Positions 28,563 to 36,310 of a stretch of 64,000 nt of DNA are shown here, piece by piece. The notes beneath the pieces were generated by a model. The model was not told where the DNA came from. It ran no database searches and saw only the letters and a program-made list of their open reading frames with translations. Every line of letters starts with the position of its first letter. Position 1 is the first letter of the stretch. The stretch spans positions 1,178,001-1,242,000 of the forward strand of contig NZ_FQLR01000004.1 in NCBI RefSeq assembly GCF_900119895.1, written 5' to 3'. This DNA comes from Collinsella phocaeensis (GTDB lineage: Bacteria; Actinomycetota; Coriobacteriia; Coriobacteriales; Coriobacteriaceae). A program made the position numbers and the translations under genes.

Positions 28563-29693
28563 TTAACAGGGCACGACCTGGAGCTCATGGGTGCTCTTCG
28601 TGAAGGGCTCATAGCCATCCGGGGTGACGACGCCGAAGTCCTCGAGGCGGACGCCGCCGACACCGGGCAGGTAGACGCCGGGCTCCACCGTGATGACGGC
28701 ACCGGCCTCGACGGTGTTGCTCGTGCGGCCGAAGACGGGGCGCTCGTGGATATCGATGCCGACGCCGTGGCCCAGGCCGTGATCATAATAGGCGCCATAC
28801 CCGGCATCTCCGATGATCTTACGGGAAAGCATGTGGATGTCGTGCCCGTCAACGCCCGCATGGATCGCCTTGACGCACTCCTCGTGCGTATGGCGGACGA
28901 GGTCGTAGAGGGCGCGCTGCTCGTCGGTGGGCTCGCCCATGACGACCGTGCGGGTCATGTCGCTGCGGTAGTCGCAGAAGGACGCGCCGTAATCCATGAG
29001 GACGAAGTCGCCCTTCTCGATGACCCGGTCGCTCGGTATCGCATGCGGGTTGGCCGTATTGGGCCCGGAGGCGACGATGGAGCCGAAGGCGAGGCCGTCG
29101 GCGCCGTGCTCGAACATGAAGTTCTCGAGTTCGGTCCGCGCCTGCTTCTCGGTCATGCCCGGACGCAAGACGCCCAGCATGTGCTGGAAGGCGGCGTCGG
29201 TGATCTCCTGCGCGCGCCGCATGAGCTCGATCTCCTCGGCATCCTTGACGGCGCGCATGATCTGCAGGTCCTCATGCATGAGCGGCAGCGCGACGCTCAC
29301 GGACAGGTCCTCGAGGGCGCGCTCGAGGGCGCGGAAGAACCCGATCTGCATGTCGTCCTCGACCGCCATCACGCGGCAGCGCGCATCGCGGGCTCTGGCG
29401 GCGACCCAGCCCGGGATATCGTGGCCGTCCATATCGACCTTCCAGGGGTGGCCCGACGGAAGGTTCTCCTCGAAGGAGTTGAAGTACCTCGAGTCGGTGT
29501 GGAGAAAGCAGGCGTCACGGGTGATGACGGCAGCATGGGGATACTCCCCGGTGTAATCGAACACGCCCTTAGCGCCAGTCAGCCAGCGGAGGTTCGCCTC
29601 GTCGCGAACGACCACGGCGTCGTAGCCGCGCTCATCCATCAACGAGCGAACGCGTGCGATGCGGCCGGCGGGGCCGGTGAGATCTTGGGTCAT
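28563..29693 (-). CDS. pepQ: Xaa-Pro aminopeptidase/dipeptidase (M24 family)
   Basis: This metallopeptidase removes residues preceding proline from peptides. The 376-residue protein has an N-terminal creatinase-like domain and a C-terminal pita-bread domain. The five metal ligands of M24 enzymes are visible: Asp in LMDYGA, Asp in SDMTRTV, His in GLGHGVGIDIHE, Glu in ITVEPGVY and Glu in RLEDFG. Whether it acts as an aminopeptidase (PepP) or dipeptidase (PepQ) is not decided by sequence. ATG at 29693 follows AAAGGAAG. It ends the alaS-ruvX-mltG-yqeG-aroK-aroB-like series, a position where pepQ commonly follows aroB in other Gram-positive genomes. Confidence 0.92.
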   Translation of the reverse strand: MTQDLTGPAGRIARVRSLMDERGYDAVVVRDEANLRWLTGAKGVFDYTGEYPHAAVITRDACFLHTDSRYFNSFEENLPSGHPWKVDMDGHDIPGWVAARARDARCRVMAVEDDMQIGFFRALERALEDLSVSVALPLMHEDLQIMRAVKDAEEIELMRRAQEITDAAFQHMLGVLRPGMTEKQARTELENFMFEHGADGLAFGSIVASGPNTANPHAIPSDRVIEKGDFVLMDYGASFCDYRSDMTRTVVMGEPTDEQRALYDLVRHTHEECVKAIHAGVDGHDIHMLSRKIIGDAGYGAYYDHGLGHGVGIDIHERPVFGRTSNTVEAGAVITVEPGVYLPGVGGVRLEDFGVVTPDGYEPFTKSTHELQVVPC

Positions 29694-29737: not shown

Positions 29738-30817
29738 TCACGCCCTGCGGGCGGCGACGAATGCGGCGGCATGGCGCTCGAGGACATCATCGTCGACCGT
29801 GGTGAGCCTGACCGTGCCGGGAAACTTGGGCAACGGCAGCATGAAGCGGTTCGAGCTGCGGAACCGCTCGGCGCGAAGCGCCCCGACAAGATCGTCGGGC
29901 TCGAAGTCGAACGTGAGCTCGCCGATGCCGAGCGCCTCGAAGGCATCGTCCTGGTCGAAGATGACCTCGGGGTCGAGACCGAACGCATCGTGGGCGACGC
30001 GCGCCTCGAAGCGCATGCCCTCTGCGACGCACAGATACCAGGGGGCCTCGGGCCCCATGAGCCCCTTCAGGGCGGCGGCGGTCGTGAGGCCGAAGGCGAG
30101 GGCGCTGCGCGCCGACGGGCTCGAGGATTTGATCGATCCCGAGCGCGAGGTCTGACACATGCAGAGCAGGTCGATCAGGGCGATGGGGTCGCCCTCGAGC
30201 ATCCGATCGATGTTCTCGGCGAGCTTGTCCCACACGCGACGGCTCTCGGACAGGGCGCTGCGCACGATGACGGTGTACCCGAGCCCGAGCTGCTCGACGT
30301 CTCCGTCGGCGACGAGGTCGAGATCGCACGCGACCATGTCGACGCGGGGCTGGATGCTCACGCACCCCGGAGCCTCTCCGCACGAGAGGGGCACCATGCC
30401 CGTCGCGAGCGAAGCCATGCCGTCGAGCGAGGTGGGGACCAAGACGCACGCGGTGCCAGCGCACCACGAGCGGGAGCACCAGATGGCAAGGGAGCACGCG
30501 GCGGTCTGGCCGACCCCGAGGATGAGGTCATCGGAGGTGATGCCGGCAGAAGACAGATCCCGCATGGCGGCGAGCGCAGCGTCCATAGACGGGTCGTCGG
30601 ACTCCGTCAGCGTGATCGAGAACCCGGCGTCGGCGAGCGCGCGGCGAACCGCCACGCGGACGCGCGCATCGGTACCCGGCGACACGATCGCATGCGCGCG
30701 CTTAGGAGAGCCCACCACGTTCTTGAGAATACGGGGGAGTTCGTCGAGCAGGCCCGACCCCAAGCGGAAATCGGTGCAGGTGCTTCCGAAGTTGACGAGT
30801 TGGCGACGAATGGTCAT
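29738..30817 (-). CDS. Degenerate AroB homologue, predicted non-catalytic
   Basis: The 359-residue protein aligns along its length with 3-dehydroquinate synthase (AroB), but its active site is lost. The NAD loop GGGxxxD is GVGQTAACSL (residues 101-110) and lacks the aspartate. The segment that carries the catalytic lysine, GGKxxxN in AroB, reads ATGMVPLS (138-145). The metal glutamate site GLAEVIK is replaced by LGYTVIVR (179-186), and the paired histidines of GHTxGHAxE are GLTTAAAL (243-250). It overlaps aroK by four bases (ATGA), so it is cotranslated. It may be a structural partner, a regulator, or an enzyme with a new activity. Whether another intact aroB exists in the genome is unknown. 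Confidence 0.8.
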   Translation of the reverse strand: MTIRRQLVNFGSTCTDFRLGSGLLDELPRILKNVVGSPKRAHAIVSPGTDARVRVAVRRALADAGFSITLTESDDPSMDAALAAMRDLSSAGITSDDLILGVGQTAACSLAIWCSRSWCAGTACVLVPTSLDGMASLATGMVPLSCGEAPGCVSIQPRVDMVACDLDLVADGDVEQLGLGYTVIVRSALSESRRVWDKLAENIDRMLEGDPIALIDLLCMCQTSRSGSIKSSSPSARSALAFGLTTAAALKGLMGPEAPWYLCVAEGMRFEARVAHDAFGLDPEVIFDQDDAFEALGIGELTFDFEPDDLVGALRAERFRSSNRFMLPLPKFPGTVRLTTVDDDVLERHAAAFVAARRA

Positions 30818-31347
30818 AGCAATCCACGCTCCAACAATATCTCGGCACAGGTATAGGACACCTCGGTAAACGAACGGCCGCGAATGTCGACGGTGATGTC
30901 GGCGGCGGCGCGGTACAGAGGACGGCGATGCTCGTAGAGCCGAGCGGCATGGCGCTTCGAGCGAAAATCGGGACGCGTGTCGGCACGGCGAATCTGGCGC
31001 AGGGAGTCATCGAAATCCCCATCGAGGTAGACGCACCAGCCCATCTCGTGCATGAGCTCGATGTTCTGCGGCATCTCGACGATTCCCCCGCCGCAGGAGA
31101 CGAGCAGGCTGCGCTCCCCCATGAGAGAGCGGAGCGCCTCGGTCTCAAGCTCCCTGAAGGCGGGCTCGCCTTCGCGCTGGAAGATCTTGGTGACGCTCAT
31201 GCCCTTCTCTCGCTCCACCATGCGATCGGTGTCGACGAAAGGGCGACGGAACATGCGTCCCAGGTTGCGCGCGAGCGTCGACTTGCCGGCACCGAGAAAC
31301 CCGATGAAGAAGATATGGTCGCAGCCGCGTTTGATCGACGAGGCCAT
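30814..31347 (-). CDS. aroK: Shikimate kinase
   Basis: AroK phosphorylates shikimate at C3. The 177-residue protein keeps the functional residues: P-loop GFLGAGKST at 16-24, the shikimate-binding Asp in VDTDRMVEREKGM, the FRELE arginine, the SCGGGIV glycine triplet, and RPLY in the lid region. It is therefore probably active, in contrast to the AroB-like neighbour that overlaps its stop by four bases. ATG at 31347 follows GAGGAG, which lies in the end of yqeG. Confidence 0.93.
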   Translation of the reverse strand: MASSIKRGCDHIFFIGFLGAGKSTLARNLGRMFRRPFVDTDRMVEREKGMSVTKIFQREGEPAFRELETEALRSLMGERSLLVSCGGGIVEMPQNIELMHEMGWCVYLDGDFDDSLRQIRRADTRPDFRSKRHAARLYEHRRPLYRAAADITVDIRGRSFTEVSYTCAEILLERGLL

Positions 31348-31352
31348 AGACG

Positions 31353-31850
31353 CTACTCCTCGCAGGGCAGGCCGCGGAGCGCGCGGCGCTCGAAGATCCG
31401 GAAGATCTGCGTGTACCAGAGGTCCACCGTCGTCTGCGGCTTCACGAGCACGGTGTCCACGCCCGCCAGGTTGCCTCCCCAGACATCCGTGTAGAGCTGG
31501 TCTCCGATCATGACGGACTCGTGCGCGCGCGCACCGAGCCTCCGCATGCCCGCACGTATGGCAAACGGAAGCGGCTTGCAGGCGAACAGGATGAAGTCCA
31601 TCCCGAGTTCGCGCGCAGAGCGCTCGACCTGATCCTTATGCCAGTTGTTGGACACCATGATGAGCTCGAAGCCGAGCGTGCGCGCCCGGTCGAGCCATGC
31701 CAAGACGGCATCGGGCGCGCAGGAGCGGTCGCGCGGAACGAGCGTATTGTCCCGATCGAGCAGGATCGCGCGCTTGCCGCGCACCCAGAGCTCGTCGAGG
31801 TCGATGCGCTCGACGCACGAGACGTAGCGTGTCGGTGAGAAAAAACTCAT
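31353..31850 (-). CDS. yqeG: YqeG-type HAD phosphatase
   Basis: YqeG proteins are HAD-superfamily phosphatases of class IIIA; phosphatidylglycerophosphate phosphatase activity is known for related eukaryotic and cyanobacterial proteins. The 165-residue protein has the nucleophile motif LLDRDNTLV, motif II VSNN, the lysine in KPLPFAIRA, and motif III MIGDQLYTDVWGGN. Substrate in this bacterium is not established. The ATG overlaps the mltG stop (ATGA). In many Firmicutes yqeG lies near aroE and yqeH; here it sits next to aroK. Confidence 0.9.
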   Translation of the reverse strand: MSFFSPTRYVSCVERIDLDELWVRGKRAILLDRDNTLVPRDRSCAPDAVLAWLDRARTLGFELIMVSNNWHKDQVERSARELGMDFILFACKPLPFAIRAGMRRLGARAHESVMIGDQLYTDVWGGNLAGVDTVLVKPQTTVDLWYTQIFRIFERRALRGLPCEE

Positions 31851-33115
31851 GAAAGGGACTCCGAATACTCCTGACTGAACTGCTCGAACTCCTCGTAATC
31901 AGCGGTGAACCGGTGGCTTCCGTCACCGGCGGCGGAGGCGACGTAGTAGAGGTAATCGGTCTGCGCCGGGGCAAGGGCGGCCTCGATCGCGGAGATCGAG
32001 GGGCTGCAGATGGGCCCGGGCGTCAGGCCGAGATGCTCGTAGACGTTGTACGGCGAATCGATCTCGAGATCGGCGTAGGTGACCCCCTGATTGCCGCCGC
32101 CGCGCGCATAGACGATCGCGGCATCGATCTGCAACGGCATATCGAGGGCGAGGCGATTGCAGATGACGCTCGCCACGAGCGGGCGCTCGTCGGCCACGGC
32201 CGTCTCGCGCTCGATGAGCGACGCCATGGTCACGACCTGTTGGGCGGTCAGGCCCTGAGGCCTGGCATCGAGATCGAGCGAAGCGGTCTCGACCTCGAAC
32301 TGATCAAGGCAGGCGCGAATGATCTGATCGACCGTGGGCGACTCGCCCAGGTTATAGGTCTTGGGGTACAGATACCCCTCAAGAGAATCCTCGTAGGCGC
32401 CCGAGAGGAACGGGTACTCGGCGGCGTAGGCGGAAGCCTTGGCCTGCGCAAGGAACTCGTCCGCGGGGATGCCGTAGGTCTCCTCGACGCGTTGAGCCGT
32501 CTGCGCGACCGTAAGCCCCTCTTGGATGGTGAGGGTCAACGTATCGGCGTTGGGGCCTTCCACGAGCTGACGGACAACGTCCTCGGGGTCCTGCAGGGTA
32601 TACAGGATATAGGAACCGGGCTTGAGGGAAGACTCGGCGCCGAGCTTGGTGACAGCGGCATAGTAATCTTTGGGATTATCGATGACATGGTTCTCAGCAA
32701 GCAGGGAGGCGATGGCGTCTCCCGATGCGCCCTCGGGAATCGTGACCTCGACCTCGAGACCGGCCTCGGCGGAAGAGGAGGGAAACAAGAGACCCTTCAC
32801 GACGGGGAACGCGAAGACCGCGACGGCGATGAGCGCGATGACGGCGACCGCGACGGCCGCGGGACCGGCGAGGGAGCGTCGCGAAGGGCGAGCTCGGCGA
32901 GAAGCCGAGGAGCTGTAGCTCGACCGAGTCGCCGCGGGGACCGGACGGGCGGCCCGATGGGCGCTCCCGGGCGCGCAATGGGCGCCGGATCTCGCGGAAC
33001 GCGCAACGGGCCGGCGCTGCGCCTGCACGGAGTCATCACGAAAGCGGGTGCCGGCGGGACGGTCACCGGACCCCGTGGAGCGGCGGCTGAAACCGTCGTC
33101 TGGGCGGTTACTCAC
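31847..33115 (-). CDS. mltG: Endolytic murein transglycosylase MltG
   Basis: MltG cleaves nascent glycan strands and is thought to end their elongation. The 422-residue protein has a cytoplasmic N-terminus of about 85 residues rich in Arg, Ser and Pro, one membrane helix (about 85-107), a LysM-like region with EGLTVAQTAQRVEETYGIP, and the catalytic domain with MASLIERET, whose Glu near residue 303 is the expected catalytic acid. SPYNVYEHLGLTPGPICSPS is also typical. I chose GTG at 33115 because AGGA lies eight bases upstream; the ATG at 33142 would overlap ruvX by 35 bases. Confidence 0.93.
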   Translation of the reverse strand: MSNRPDDGFSRRSTGSGDRPAGTRFRDDSVQAQRRPVARSARSGAHCAPGSAHRAARPVPAATRSSYSSSASRRARPSRRSLAGPAAVAVAVIALIAVAVFAFPVVKGLLFPSSSAEAGLEVEVTIPEGASGDAIASLLAENHVIDNPKDYYAAVTKLGAESSLKPGSYILYTLQDPEDVVRQLVEGPNADTLTLTIQEGLTVAQTAQRVEETYGIPADEFLAQAKASAYAAEYPFLSGAYEDSLEGYLYPKTYNLGESPTVDQIIRACLDQFEVETASLDLDARPQGLTAQQVVTMASLIERETAVADERPLVASVICNRLALDMPLQIDAAIVYARGGGNQGVTYADLEIDSPYNVYEHLGLTPGPICSPSISAIEAALAPAQTDYLYYVASAAGDGSHRFTADYEEFEQFSQEYSESLS

Positions 33116-33539
33116 GGTCGTCGTCCTTTCTCGTACGGGCATCGAGCCACGCCTGCAAGAAAAGCGAGGCGGCGATCATATCGACCTTGCCGCGCATCTG
33201 GCGCTCCGACAACCCCTGCTCCCGCAGGATGCGCTTGGCCTCGGAGGAGGACAGGCGCTCGTCGACGAGCTCGAGCGGCAACTCGCAGCGCTCCGCGATG
33301 GAGCGCGCCTGGCTGACGACGCGCTCGGCCTGGGGGCCGTCCTCGCCGGCGAGCGTCCGAGGACGCCCGCACACGAGGACGTCGGGCTCATAGTCCTCGA
33401 GGACCATGCGGAAACTTCGCGCATGGGCGAGGACCTCATCGGCGGGCAGGACCTTCACCGGCATCGCTACGCGTCCGGCGCTATCGGACGCAGCGATGCC
33501 GATGCGGGTCTGCCCGATGTCAAGCGCAAGCGCGACCAT
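33108..33539 (-). CDS. ruvX: RuvX/YqgF RNase H-fold nuclease
   Basis: RuvX (YqgF) is a small RNase H-like protein, essential in several bacteria, implicated in 16S rRNA maturation and possibly Holliday-junction resolution. The 143-residue protein begins MVALALDIGQTRIGIAASD, with the first catalytic Asp, has VCGRPRTLAGEDGPQ and VDERLSSSEAKRIL, and ends with KVDMIAASLFLQAWLD containing the last acidic residue. It follows alaS by eight bases and precedes mltG, the order seen in many Gram-positive genomes. Confidence 0.93.
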   Translation of the reverse strand: MVALALDIGQTRIGIAASDSAGRVAMPVKVLPADEVLAHARSFRMVLEDYEPDVLVCGRPRTLAGEDGPQAERVVSQARSIAERCELPLELVDERLSSSEAKRILREQGLSERQMRGKVDMIAASLFLQAWLDARTRKDDDRE

Positions 33540-33547
33540 GCCGGCCC

Positions 33548-36202
33548 CTAGAGGCCGAGCAGGGCTCGAGCGGCGTCAAGGGCCGCAGGGATGCCGGATG
33601 CATCCTTGCCGCCGGCCTGGGCCATGGTGGGCTTGCCGCCGCCACGCCCGCCGACATGCGCGGAGATCTCCTTGATGACGTCGCCGGCCTTGAATCCCGC
33701 GGAGACCGCGTCGTCGGTAGCGGCGGCCAGAAGCGCAGGTGTGCCCTTTTCGGTCACCGTGGCGACCACGCAGGCGACGGGACCTGAGACCTTCTGGCGG
33801 ATGGTGTCCCAAACGTTGCGGAGCTCGGAGCCCTCAAGGCCTGAAAGCTGGGCGAGGACGAGCTTGTAGCCGTCGGCATCGAGCGCGCCCTCGATAGCGG
33901 AGGAGATGGCATCGGAGCTGGCGCCGGTGAGCGCGGCCTTGAGCTTCTGGTTGACTTCGCGCACATCGGCCTGAAGTGACGCGATGCGGGCCGGAACCTC
34001 GTCGATGCGGCACTTGAGCGCACCCGCAGCCTGCTCGGCGAGGGCGGCGCGGTTCTCGAGCCACTCGATGGCTCCGGCGCTCGTCGCGGCCTCGATGCGG
34101 CGGATGTTGGAACCCGTGGAGGACTCGGAGATGATCTTGAACAGACCGAGCTCGGCGGTGTTGGCAGCATGCGTTCCGCCGCAGAGCTCGCGGGAGAAGG
34201 GCCGGTCCTCCTCGCCGACCGACACGACGCGGACGACGTCGCCGTACTTCTCGCCGAACAGCGCGACGGCTCCGGACGCCTTGGCCTCCTCGATGCCCAT
34301 GACGCGGGTCACGACAGGCTTCGCGGCGAGGATCTCGCGGTTGACCAGGCGCTCGACCGCCTTGATCTGATCGGAGCTCAGAGCCTCGAAATGCGTGAAG
34401 TCGAAACGGAGGTAGTCGTGCGCGACAAGCGAGCCGGCCTGGTTCACATGGTCGCCGAGGACCTCCTTGAGGGCGGCGTCGAGCAGGTGCGTCGCCGTGT
34501 GGTTGCGACGGACGAGGGCGCGGCGCTCGAGGTCGTAGCCGGCGAAAACGGTATCGCCCTCGGAAAGCGTGCCGGAAAGCGTTCCCTCGTGGACGTACAG
34601 CCCGCCCTTGGAGACGGTGTCGCGCACGAGGACCTGCCCGCTATCGGAATCGATCAGGCCGCGATCGCCCTTCTGGCCGCCCATCTCGGCATAGAACGGG
34701 GTGCGGTCGAGCACGACCTGGACGTCGACGCCGCCCTCGGCGGTCTTCACGCGCGCACCGTCGACCACGATGGCGAGAACGCGGGCGCCCTCGACGCTCT
34801 CGTGGTCATAGCCCATGAACTCGGTGGCGGGAAGCTCGTCGGACAGCTCGGTCCAGACATCGTTGAAGGAGCCCCAGGCATCGCCCTTCGCGGCGGCGCG
34901 GGCGCGAGCCTTCTGCTCGGCCATCTCGGCATCGAAGCCCTCGATATCGACCGCGTGGCCCGCGCCCTCGGCGATCTCGACCGTGAGGTCGATGGGGAAC
35001 CCGAAGGTGTCGTGCAGCATGAACGCGGCCTTGCCGGGAAGCTGCTCGCCCGCCGCCAGGGCGGCAAGCTGCTCGTCAAGGTAGACGCGACCGTTGTTGA
35101 GCGTGTTGGAGAAACGCTCCTCCTCGGCGCTCACGATGCCTTTGACCAGCGCGGCGTTCTCGATGAGGTTGGGGTAGGCCTCGCCCATGACGTCGTTGAC
35201 GGCATCGATGAAACGGCCCAGGAAGGCGTCCTCGATGCCCAGAAGGCGGCCGTGGAAGACGGCGCGGCGGAGCAGGCGGCGCAGGACGTAACCGCGCCCC
35301 TCGTTGCCGGGCAGGACGCCGTCGGAGATCAGGAAGTTCACCGAGCGGGCGTGGTCGGCGATGATGCGGAGGCTGCGGGAGGCGCCGCTATAGTCGTCAT
35401 CGACGTACGTCGCGCCGGAGATCTCCTCGCCGAGCTTGATGAGGCTCTGCATGACGTCGCCGTCGAAAAACGAGCTCTTGTGCTGCATGATCGCGGCCAT
35501 GCGCTCGAGACCCATGCCGGTATCGAGGTTGCGATGGGGCAGCTCGGGCATGGAGCCGTCCTCCTGGCGATCGAACTGCGTGAAAACGAGGTTCCAGAAC
35601 TCCAGGAAGCGATCGCAGTCGCAGCCCGGCGCGCAGCCCTCGCGGCCGCAGCCCACTTCCTCACCGAGATCGAAGTAGATCTCGGAGCAGGGGCCGCAGG
35701 GGCCGGTGGGGCCGGCGGCCCAGAAGTTGTCGTCCTCGCCGAGGCGCGTGATATGGTCCTCGGCGACGCCCAGGTCGCGCCACACGTCGTGCGTCTCGTC
35801 ATCGTCGGTGAAAACGGTGAAGTGCAGGCGCTCCTTCGGGAGCTTGAACACCTCGGTGATGAGCTCGTAGGCCCAGGCGCAAGCCTGCTCCTTGGTGACG
35901 CCGCCGAAGGCGAAGTTGCCGAGCATCTCGAAGAACGAGGCGTGGCGCCCGTCGGCGCCGATGATGTCGATATCGTTGGTGCGCACGCACTTCTGGCACG
36001 AGCAGGCACCGATCTCCTTCATCGTCTTCTTGCCCTGGTAGTACTCCTTGAACTGGTTCATGCCGGCGTTGGCGAGCAGCAGCGAGGGGTCGTCGGGAAC
36101 GAGCGAGGAACTCGGGTAGAGCTTGCAGCCCTTCTCCTTGAAGAAGTTGAGATAAGCCGAACGGATCTCGGCGGTTGTCATGGTGGGATAGTCAGCGCTC
36201 AT
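33548..36202 (-). CDS. alaS: Alanyl-tRNA synthetase
   Basis: AlaS charges tRNA-Ala and edits mischarged Ser and Gly. The 884-residue protein has the class II catalytic core (start IRSAYLNFFKEKGCKLYPSS, motif with NAGMNQFKEYY), the editing domain with NHTATHLLDAAL and CGGTHAANTAELG, and the C-Ala domain ending with GRGGGKPTMAQAGGKD. ATG at 36202 (MSADYPTM) has GGAG upstream. The longer in-frame ATG at 36250 lacks one. No T-box is visible in its leader. The gene heads a run that continues through ruvX, mltG, yqeG and aroK. Confidence 0.97.
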   Translation of the reverse strand: MSADYPTMTTAEIRSAYLNFFKEKGCKLYPSSSLVPDDPSLLLANAGMNQFKEYYQGKKTMKEIGACSCQKCVRTNDIDIIGADGRHASFFEMLGNFAFGGVTKEQACAWAYELITEVFKLPKERLHFTVFTDDDETHDVWRDLGVAEDHITRLGEDDNFWAAGPTGPCGPCSEIYFDLGEEVGCGREGCAPGCDCDRFLEFWNLVFTQFDRQEDGSMPELPHRNLDTGMGLERMAAIMQHKSSFFDGDVMQSLIKLGEEISGATYVDDDYSGASRSLRIIADHARSVNFLISDGVLPGNEGRGYVLRRLLRRAVFHGRLLGIEDAFLGRFIDAVNDVMGEAYPNLIENAALVKGIVSAEEERFSNTLNNGRVYLDEQLAALAAGEQLPGKAAFMLHDTFGFPIDLTVEIAEGAGHAVDIEGFDAEMAEQKARARAAAKGDAWGSFNDVWTELSDELPATEFMGYDHESVEGARVLAIVVDGARVKTAEGGVDVQVVLDRTPFYAEMGGQKGDRGLIDSDSGQVLVRDTVSKGGLYVHEGTLSGTLSEGDTVFAGYDLERRALVRRNHTATHLLDAALKEVLGDHVNQAGSLVAHDYLRFDFTHFEALSSDQIKAVERLVNREILAAKPVVTRVMGIEEAKASGAVALFGEKYGDVVRVVSVGEEDRPFSRELCGGTHAANTAELGLFKIISESSTGSNIRRIEAATSAGAIEWLENRAALAEQAAGALKCRIDEVPARIASLQADVREVNQKLKAALTGASSDAISSAIEGALDADGYKLVLAQLSGLEGSELRNVWDTIRQKVSGPVACVVATVTEKGTPALLAAATDDAVSAGFKAGDVIKEISAHVGGRGGGKPTMAQAGGKDASGIPAALDAARALLGL

Positions 36203-36310
36203 CGATTGCGACTCCTGGTTCGGAAGAACGGTACGGTCAAACTCAATCATTCTATACTGAAAGCTCGCTGCTCAGGCATCCCACCGCACCAATCCACATT
36301 TCGAACGGCA

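Follow-up and report, generated by a model that had tools for sequence, protein, structure and literature searches.

A DHQS-fold protein that lacks nearly all DHQS active-site residues and is kept beside a second shikimate kinase in two families of gut Coriobacteriales

The residues upon which 3-dehydroquinate synthase (DHQS, AroB) depends are known in part from mutagenesis. In the M. tuberculosis enzyme a single alanine at the equivalent of K152, N162, N268, H271 or K356 (A. nidulans numbering, which is used for the residue comparison below) abolishes activity (PMC6262012). The same fold is found in other sugar phosphate cyclases, including the 2-deoxy-scyllo-inosose, 2-epi-5-epi-valiolone and desmethyl-4-deoxygadusol synthases, and those that have been solved bind NAD and/or a divalent metal. 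In the shikimate kinase MtSK, the shikimate pocket is lined in part by L119, and R110 moves onto the nucleotide (PMC7144000). Domains of this pathway are also found where catalysis is absent or doubtful. For instance, the DHQase domain of Candida albicans Aro1 is catalytically inactive yet kept (PMC9074039), and the AROM-derived repressors QutR, GaaX and TanX of Aspergillus carry pathway domains that are thought to be inactive and to bind the inducer (PMC10512348). For DHQS itself, no description of a non-catalytic form was found in the literature searched, the coverage of which was partial. Why would a bacterium retain a DHQS fold once the residues associated with its chemistry have gone? The question is raised by a gene of Collinsella phocaeensis, here called AroB*, which lies within the window, that is, the whole stretch of 64,000 nucleotides that was analysed (Table 1).

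Table 1. Features of the AroB* locus, with positions counted from the first letter of the window
Feature	Position	Strand	Basis or remark
pepQ-like M24 peptidase, conserved downstream neighbour	28563..29693	(-)	PF00557/PF01321; synteny
AroB*, DHQS-fold protein	29738..30817	(-)	359 aa, ATG start; lacks metal, NAD-loop and nearly all substrate residues
ATGA overlap, aroK2 stop / AroB* start	30814..30817	(-)	sequence
aroK2, second shikimate-kinase-family protein	30814..31347	(-)	177 aa; PF01202 E 3e-39
yqeG, HAD phosphatase, conserved upstream neighbour	31353..31850	(-)	TIGR01668 above cut-off; synteny
mltG, ruvX, alaS	31847..36250	(-)	ORFs, synteny; names from sequence and cross-genome matches

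The homology of AroB* to AroB is weak by sequence and certain by profile and fold. With TIGR01357 the protein scores 35.7 bits (E 5e-9), far under the equivalog cut-off of 305 bits, the AroB of M. tuberculosis in the PDB is matched at E 9e-5 (3qbd), and no named family was matched beyond weak hits to AroB and Fe-ADH. The AroB* profile, when aligned by HHalign with that of the coriobacterial AroB encoded at the corresponding locus (the in-locus AroB), gives a probability of 100% (E 7e-55). An AlphaFold model built with 32 homologues as input has a mean pLDDT of 95.8 and adopts the DHQS fold: its nearest solved structures in Foldseek are all DHQS (E 6.7e-21, TM 0.87), and against a solved AroB it gives a Z score of 39.5 over 348 aligned residues, with values of 31-36 for the other sugar phosphate cyclases. 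The first-pass annotation, which was made from the letters of the window, had described an AroB homologue along its whole length in an intact frame of normal composition, and all three points hold. The frame is a single ORF that begins and ends exactly as tabulated, and its GC (0.681), GC3 (0.872) and codon usage are like those of the neighbouring genes, which speaks against horizontal gain or an odd composition.

The annotation went further in claiming that every catalytic element had been replaced, and here the profile alignments bear out the greater part. All three metal ligands are changed in the window protein (E194>V183, H271>L244 and H287>W260), and their columns are variable across the 55 + 22 homologues examined. 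Within the NAD loop, GGG..GD, the aspartate has become a serine (D119>S109) and the second and third glycines are not conserved. Further changes are R130>A, D146>S, K197>R, N268>A, H275>A and K356>F, and the equivalents of K152 and N162 are lost. What does not stand is the word every, since the pocket arginine R264 is retained as R237 and two of the lysines have become arginine. K250 is conservatively replaced by R225, an arginine in 54/55 family members, and the H275 column is frequently Arg within the family. R264 is nevertheless the sole residue kept of the DAHP pocket (D146, K152, N162, K197, K250, R264, N268, H275, K356), and no intact Lys, Glu or His ligand is placed elsewhere in the protein by the alignments. 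The catalytic-residue losses recur in all 55 + 22 homologues, whereas in canonical coriobacterial AroBs all 22 checked positions are invariant or nearly so; of the 75 columns that are invariant in the in-locus canonical AroB only 17 are kept at >=80% in AroB*. DHQS activity is very unlikely on this basis, because alanine at any of five of the lost positions is sufficient to abolish it in the M. tuberculosis enzyme.

The gene is neither an assembly error nor a pseudogene of one genome, as AroB* is present in 66/67 sampled Coriobacteriaceae genomes, from Collinsella, Enorma and other members of the family. Within an order-wide sample of 299 genomes, 91 belong to a second family, f5, which is probably Atopobiaceae since the named records with such proteins are Atopobiaceae; 89 of these have strong matches to both AroB* and canonical AroB, and one divergent copy (G242) brings the AroB* carriers to 90/91. 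A further f5 genome, G152, gave no AroB* match and has apparently lost both the AroB* and AroK2 genes. A few loci are irregular. In Collinsella vaginalis (G048; L088, the same record as L187) AroB* is split between two places, through a break or a misassembly, within a rearranged block that also holds another copy each of mltG and yqeG as well as 5 N. In an 81%-complete MAG (G055, L084:2385-4586) the AroB* frame continues into PepQ to give 734 aa, through fusion or frameshift, and in G242 (L236:7919-8479) a membrane ORF, which by eye resembles a prepilin peptidase, lies between AroB* and yqeG.

AroB* is under purifying selection. Its dN/dS across eight close pairs ranges from 0.05 to 0.29, with a median of 0.10 and each pair at p<1e-9 against neutral, in agreement with the earlier suggestion that the gene is kept under selection; values for distant pairs (~0.5) were set aside as synonymous sites are near saturation. 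The constraint is looser than on AroK2, the dN/dS of which has a median of 0.036, some 2-3 times lower, and AroB* diverges much faster (40-51% against 68-80% identity). The overlap between the two genes, which had been reported together with an intact AroK, is conserved across both families: the stop-start overlap and a GGAG ribosome-binding-like site, which sits within the 3' end of aroK2 (LLERGLL*), are kept in Coriobacteriaceae, in the Atopobiaceae-like f5 and in one further family, including in G073. Certain canonical in-locus aroB genes show the same ATGA overlap, so the coupling may be ancestral and merely inherited. That AroB* is a DHQS-fold protein, is not a DHQS, and is held by selection is a statement we make with high confidence.

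The surroundings of the gene point to its origin. In both families the order is alaS-ruvX-mltG-yqeG-aroK-aroB-pepQ, with aroE, aroC and aroQ absent from the locus. The same slot in families f2, f4, f7, f9 and f10 holds a canonical aroB among aroC, aroK, pepQ and, in many cases, aroQ; upstream, as far as the contig extends, come alaS-ruvX-mltG-yqeG. The genome of the window has an intact canonical aroB as well, ~145 kb from AroB*, within a second cluster (L002) that encodes DAHP synthase, prephenate dehydrogenase, AroB, AroA, AroC, prephenate dehydratase, an AroE-shikimate kinase fusion and AroQ. This second copy, for which the first-pass annotation had advised a search, is found in 65/67 Coriobacteriaceae genomes, and it removes the notion that AroB* might be active as the only AroB of its genome. 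The fusion is one frame at L002:2104-3615 and, judged by open-frame length, occurs in most of the family. The AroB* profile scores 146-183 bits against in-locus AroBs and 52-94 bits against those of the second cluster, and in a tree AroB* stands apart from the second-cluster AroB clade. On the strength of synteny, profile scores and tree separation AroB* is best read as a descendant of the in-locus AroB, its exact placement being unsure because the branches are long; descent as a duplicate of the second-cluster AroB is ruled out by the better in-locus match and the separate clade.

Since the second cluster encodes the AroE-shikimate kinase fusion, the AroK of the window is a second copy, and two are found in nearly all genomes of the family. 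Walker A, D32/D34, R58, GGG, R117 and R136 are kept in AroK2, with the catalytic residues intact in 72 sequences. In the lid, R110>Q (K in one case) and L119>D are common to every one of the 72 sequences from the two families, at the two positions which in MtSK meet the nucleotide and the shikimate pocket, and it is possible that the substrate has changed.

A role outside chorismate synthesis is supported most strongly by two genomes that have lost the pathway, the loss in the first being judged on aroB, aroC, aroA, aroE and shikimate kinase. The genome G058, a single contig of 2,115,681 bases that is 99% complete, retains the coupled AroK2 and AroB* and lacks a canonical aroB, chorismate synthase (aroC) and the aroE N-domain; its search for aroA returned a MurA-level match only, and AroK2 is its sole shikimate kinase. 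The second, G073 (94% complete), keeps the pair and lacks aroA, aroE and aroC. A third genome, G037, was left out of the count as it has a partial aroE and its contig stays open over 24,363 aa, which probably reflects masked sequence. Because a relative without the pathway keeps the pair, the role of AroK2-AroB* probably lies outside chorismate synthesis. With the active site lost, selection maintained and the pair surviving loss of the pathway, AroB* very probably does another job than DHQS. It can also exist without an adjacent kinase, as no shikimate kinase was found in G242, which retains its divergent AroB*, and G233 has a degenerate AroB without an adjoining aroK.

The reading that we prefer, to which we would give a probability of roughly 0.45, is that AroB* is a pseudoenzyme derived from the AroB of the locus and acts as a non-catalytic partner of the coupled AroK2. 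Synteny and profile similarity indicate that the ancestral AroB was encoded in an alaS-ruvX-mltG-yqeG-aroE-aroC-aroK-aroB-aroQ-pepQ locus, and the second, complete aro cluster with its canonical pathway enzymes would have freed it. DHQS chemistry would then have disappeared, if the published mutants are a guide, with the loss of the metal, NAD-loop and most pocket residues. Through the conserved stop-start overlap AroB* would be made in step with AroK2, perhaps in stoichiometric amounts, and would serve it as a non-catalytic partner or ligand-sensing subunit, with an anionic ligand perhaps bound by the basic residues left in the pocket (R225, R237 and often R248), and with the pair acting outside chorismate synthesis. 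A bolder version, in which the two proteins form a kinase/DHQS-fold-pseudoenzyme module that is near-universal in the two families and has a substrate outside the shikimate pathway, is put forward more tentatively.

The conserved shikimate site of AroK2 bears on the foremost alternative, namely that AroB* still belongs to aromatic biosynthesis, with AroK2 as an auxiliary shikimate kinase under the control of AroB*, itself a sensor of DAHP, shikimate or a related acid. With one or two exceptions among 73 sequences the contacts D34, R58, G80 and R136 are kept, most genomes bearing the pair have the whole pathway, and the inactive, AROM-like repressors of the fungal quinate pathway offer a precedent for inducer binding (PMC10512348). 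In G058 and G073, without aroA, aroE and aroC, shikimate 3-phosphate would however be a dead end, and the fused AroE-shikimate kinase already provides for the step, so this explanation is unlikely. Rather less likely again is a new enzyme, its cleft rebuilt for a different reaction that is independent of metal and NAD. Seven new or switched residues (R5, T94, D97, S109, W118, R225 and R324) are fixed across both families, which together with purifying selection is in its favour, but the columns of E194, N268, H271, H287, K152 and N162 are variable with no new fixed set, and such variability at the former metal and most catalytic positions is unusual for an active site. Moreover, the other structural relatives listed for which ligands are described use NAD and metal.

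Degenerate in-locus AroBs are also found outside both families, in G102/G213, G233 and, partly, G071. In G213 and G102 the degenerate protein (L238, L243) has aroK and aroC as neighbours, and each genome encodes a canonical AroB at another locus (L239, L242). The in-locus protein of G071 (L215:6278-7393) keeps the NAD loop and has lost E194, N268, H271 and R264, an intermediate-looking state. Taxonomy suggests several independent losses, which are not claimed here as a single clade of degenerate AroBs is not rejected (AU p 0.47). If the in-locus AroB had an ancestral, non-catalytic second job, such as stabilising an AroK complex, that outlives its chemistry, then degenerate in-locus copies accompanied by another AroB, as in G102/G213, G233 and G071, would be expected; the single origin that the tree allows and a truncated copy, the only in-locus AroB of G249, which looks like decay, make this slightly less probable than a new enzyme. 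Finally, a slowly decaying relic, held open because its translation serves neighbours in a compact operon, would suit the fast divergence, the broken copy in G048 and the absence from G152, but is improbable given strong amino-acid-level purifying selection in close pairs, a frame that is open in nearly all of >150 genomes, new fixed residues and a confident, compact model.

AroB* is a near-universal, well-folded probable pseudoenzyme of common gut bacteria, Collinsella and its relatives, in which its weak AroB score invites the wrong pathway annotation. The pathway-less genomes that carry the kinase-pseudoenzyme pair make a separate function directly testable.

In comparison with known systems, AroB* shares with AroB (TIGR01357; PF01761/PF24621) a recognisable homology, the fold from end to end and the slot beside aroK, and differs in that the metal ligands and NAD-loop Asp are gone and that 1/11 DAHP-pocket residues is kept, plus the K>R changes. 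The residues through which the solved sugar phosphate cyclases hold NAD and metal are likewise absent. AroK2 has all the catalytic and shikimate-contact residues of shikimate kinase and is set apart by R110>Q/K and L119>D, both fixed, and by being a second genomic copy. The inactive DHQase domain of Candida albicans Aro1 resembles AroB* in being kept, although it is another enzyme and part of a multidomain protein. QutR, GaaX and TanX are eukaryotic and derive from the shikimate kinase-DHQase-SDH half of AROM; by description, they are like AroB* in that pathway domains thought to be inactive have been retained, in their case as regulators.
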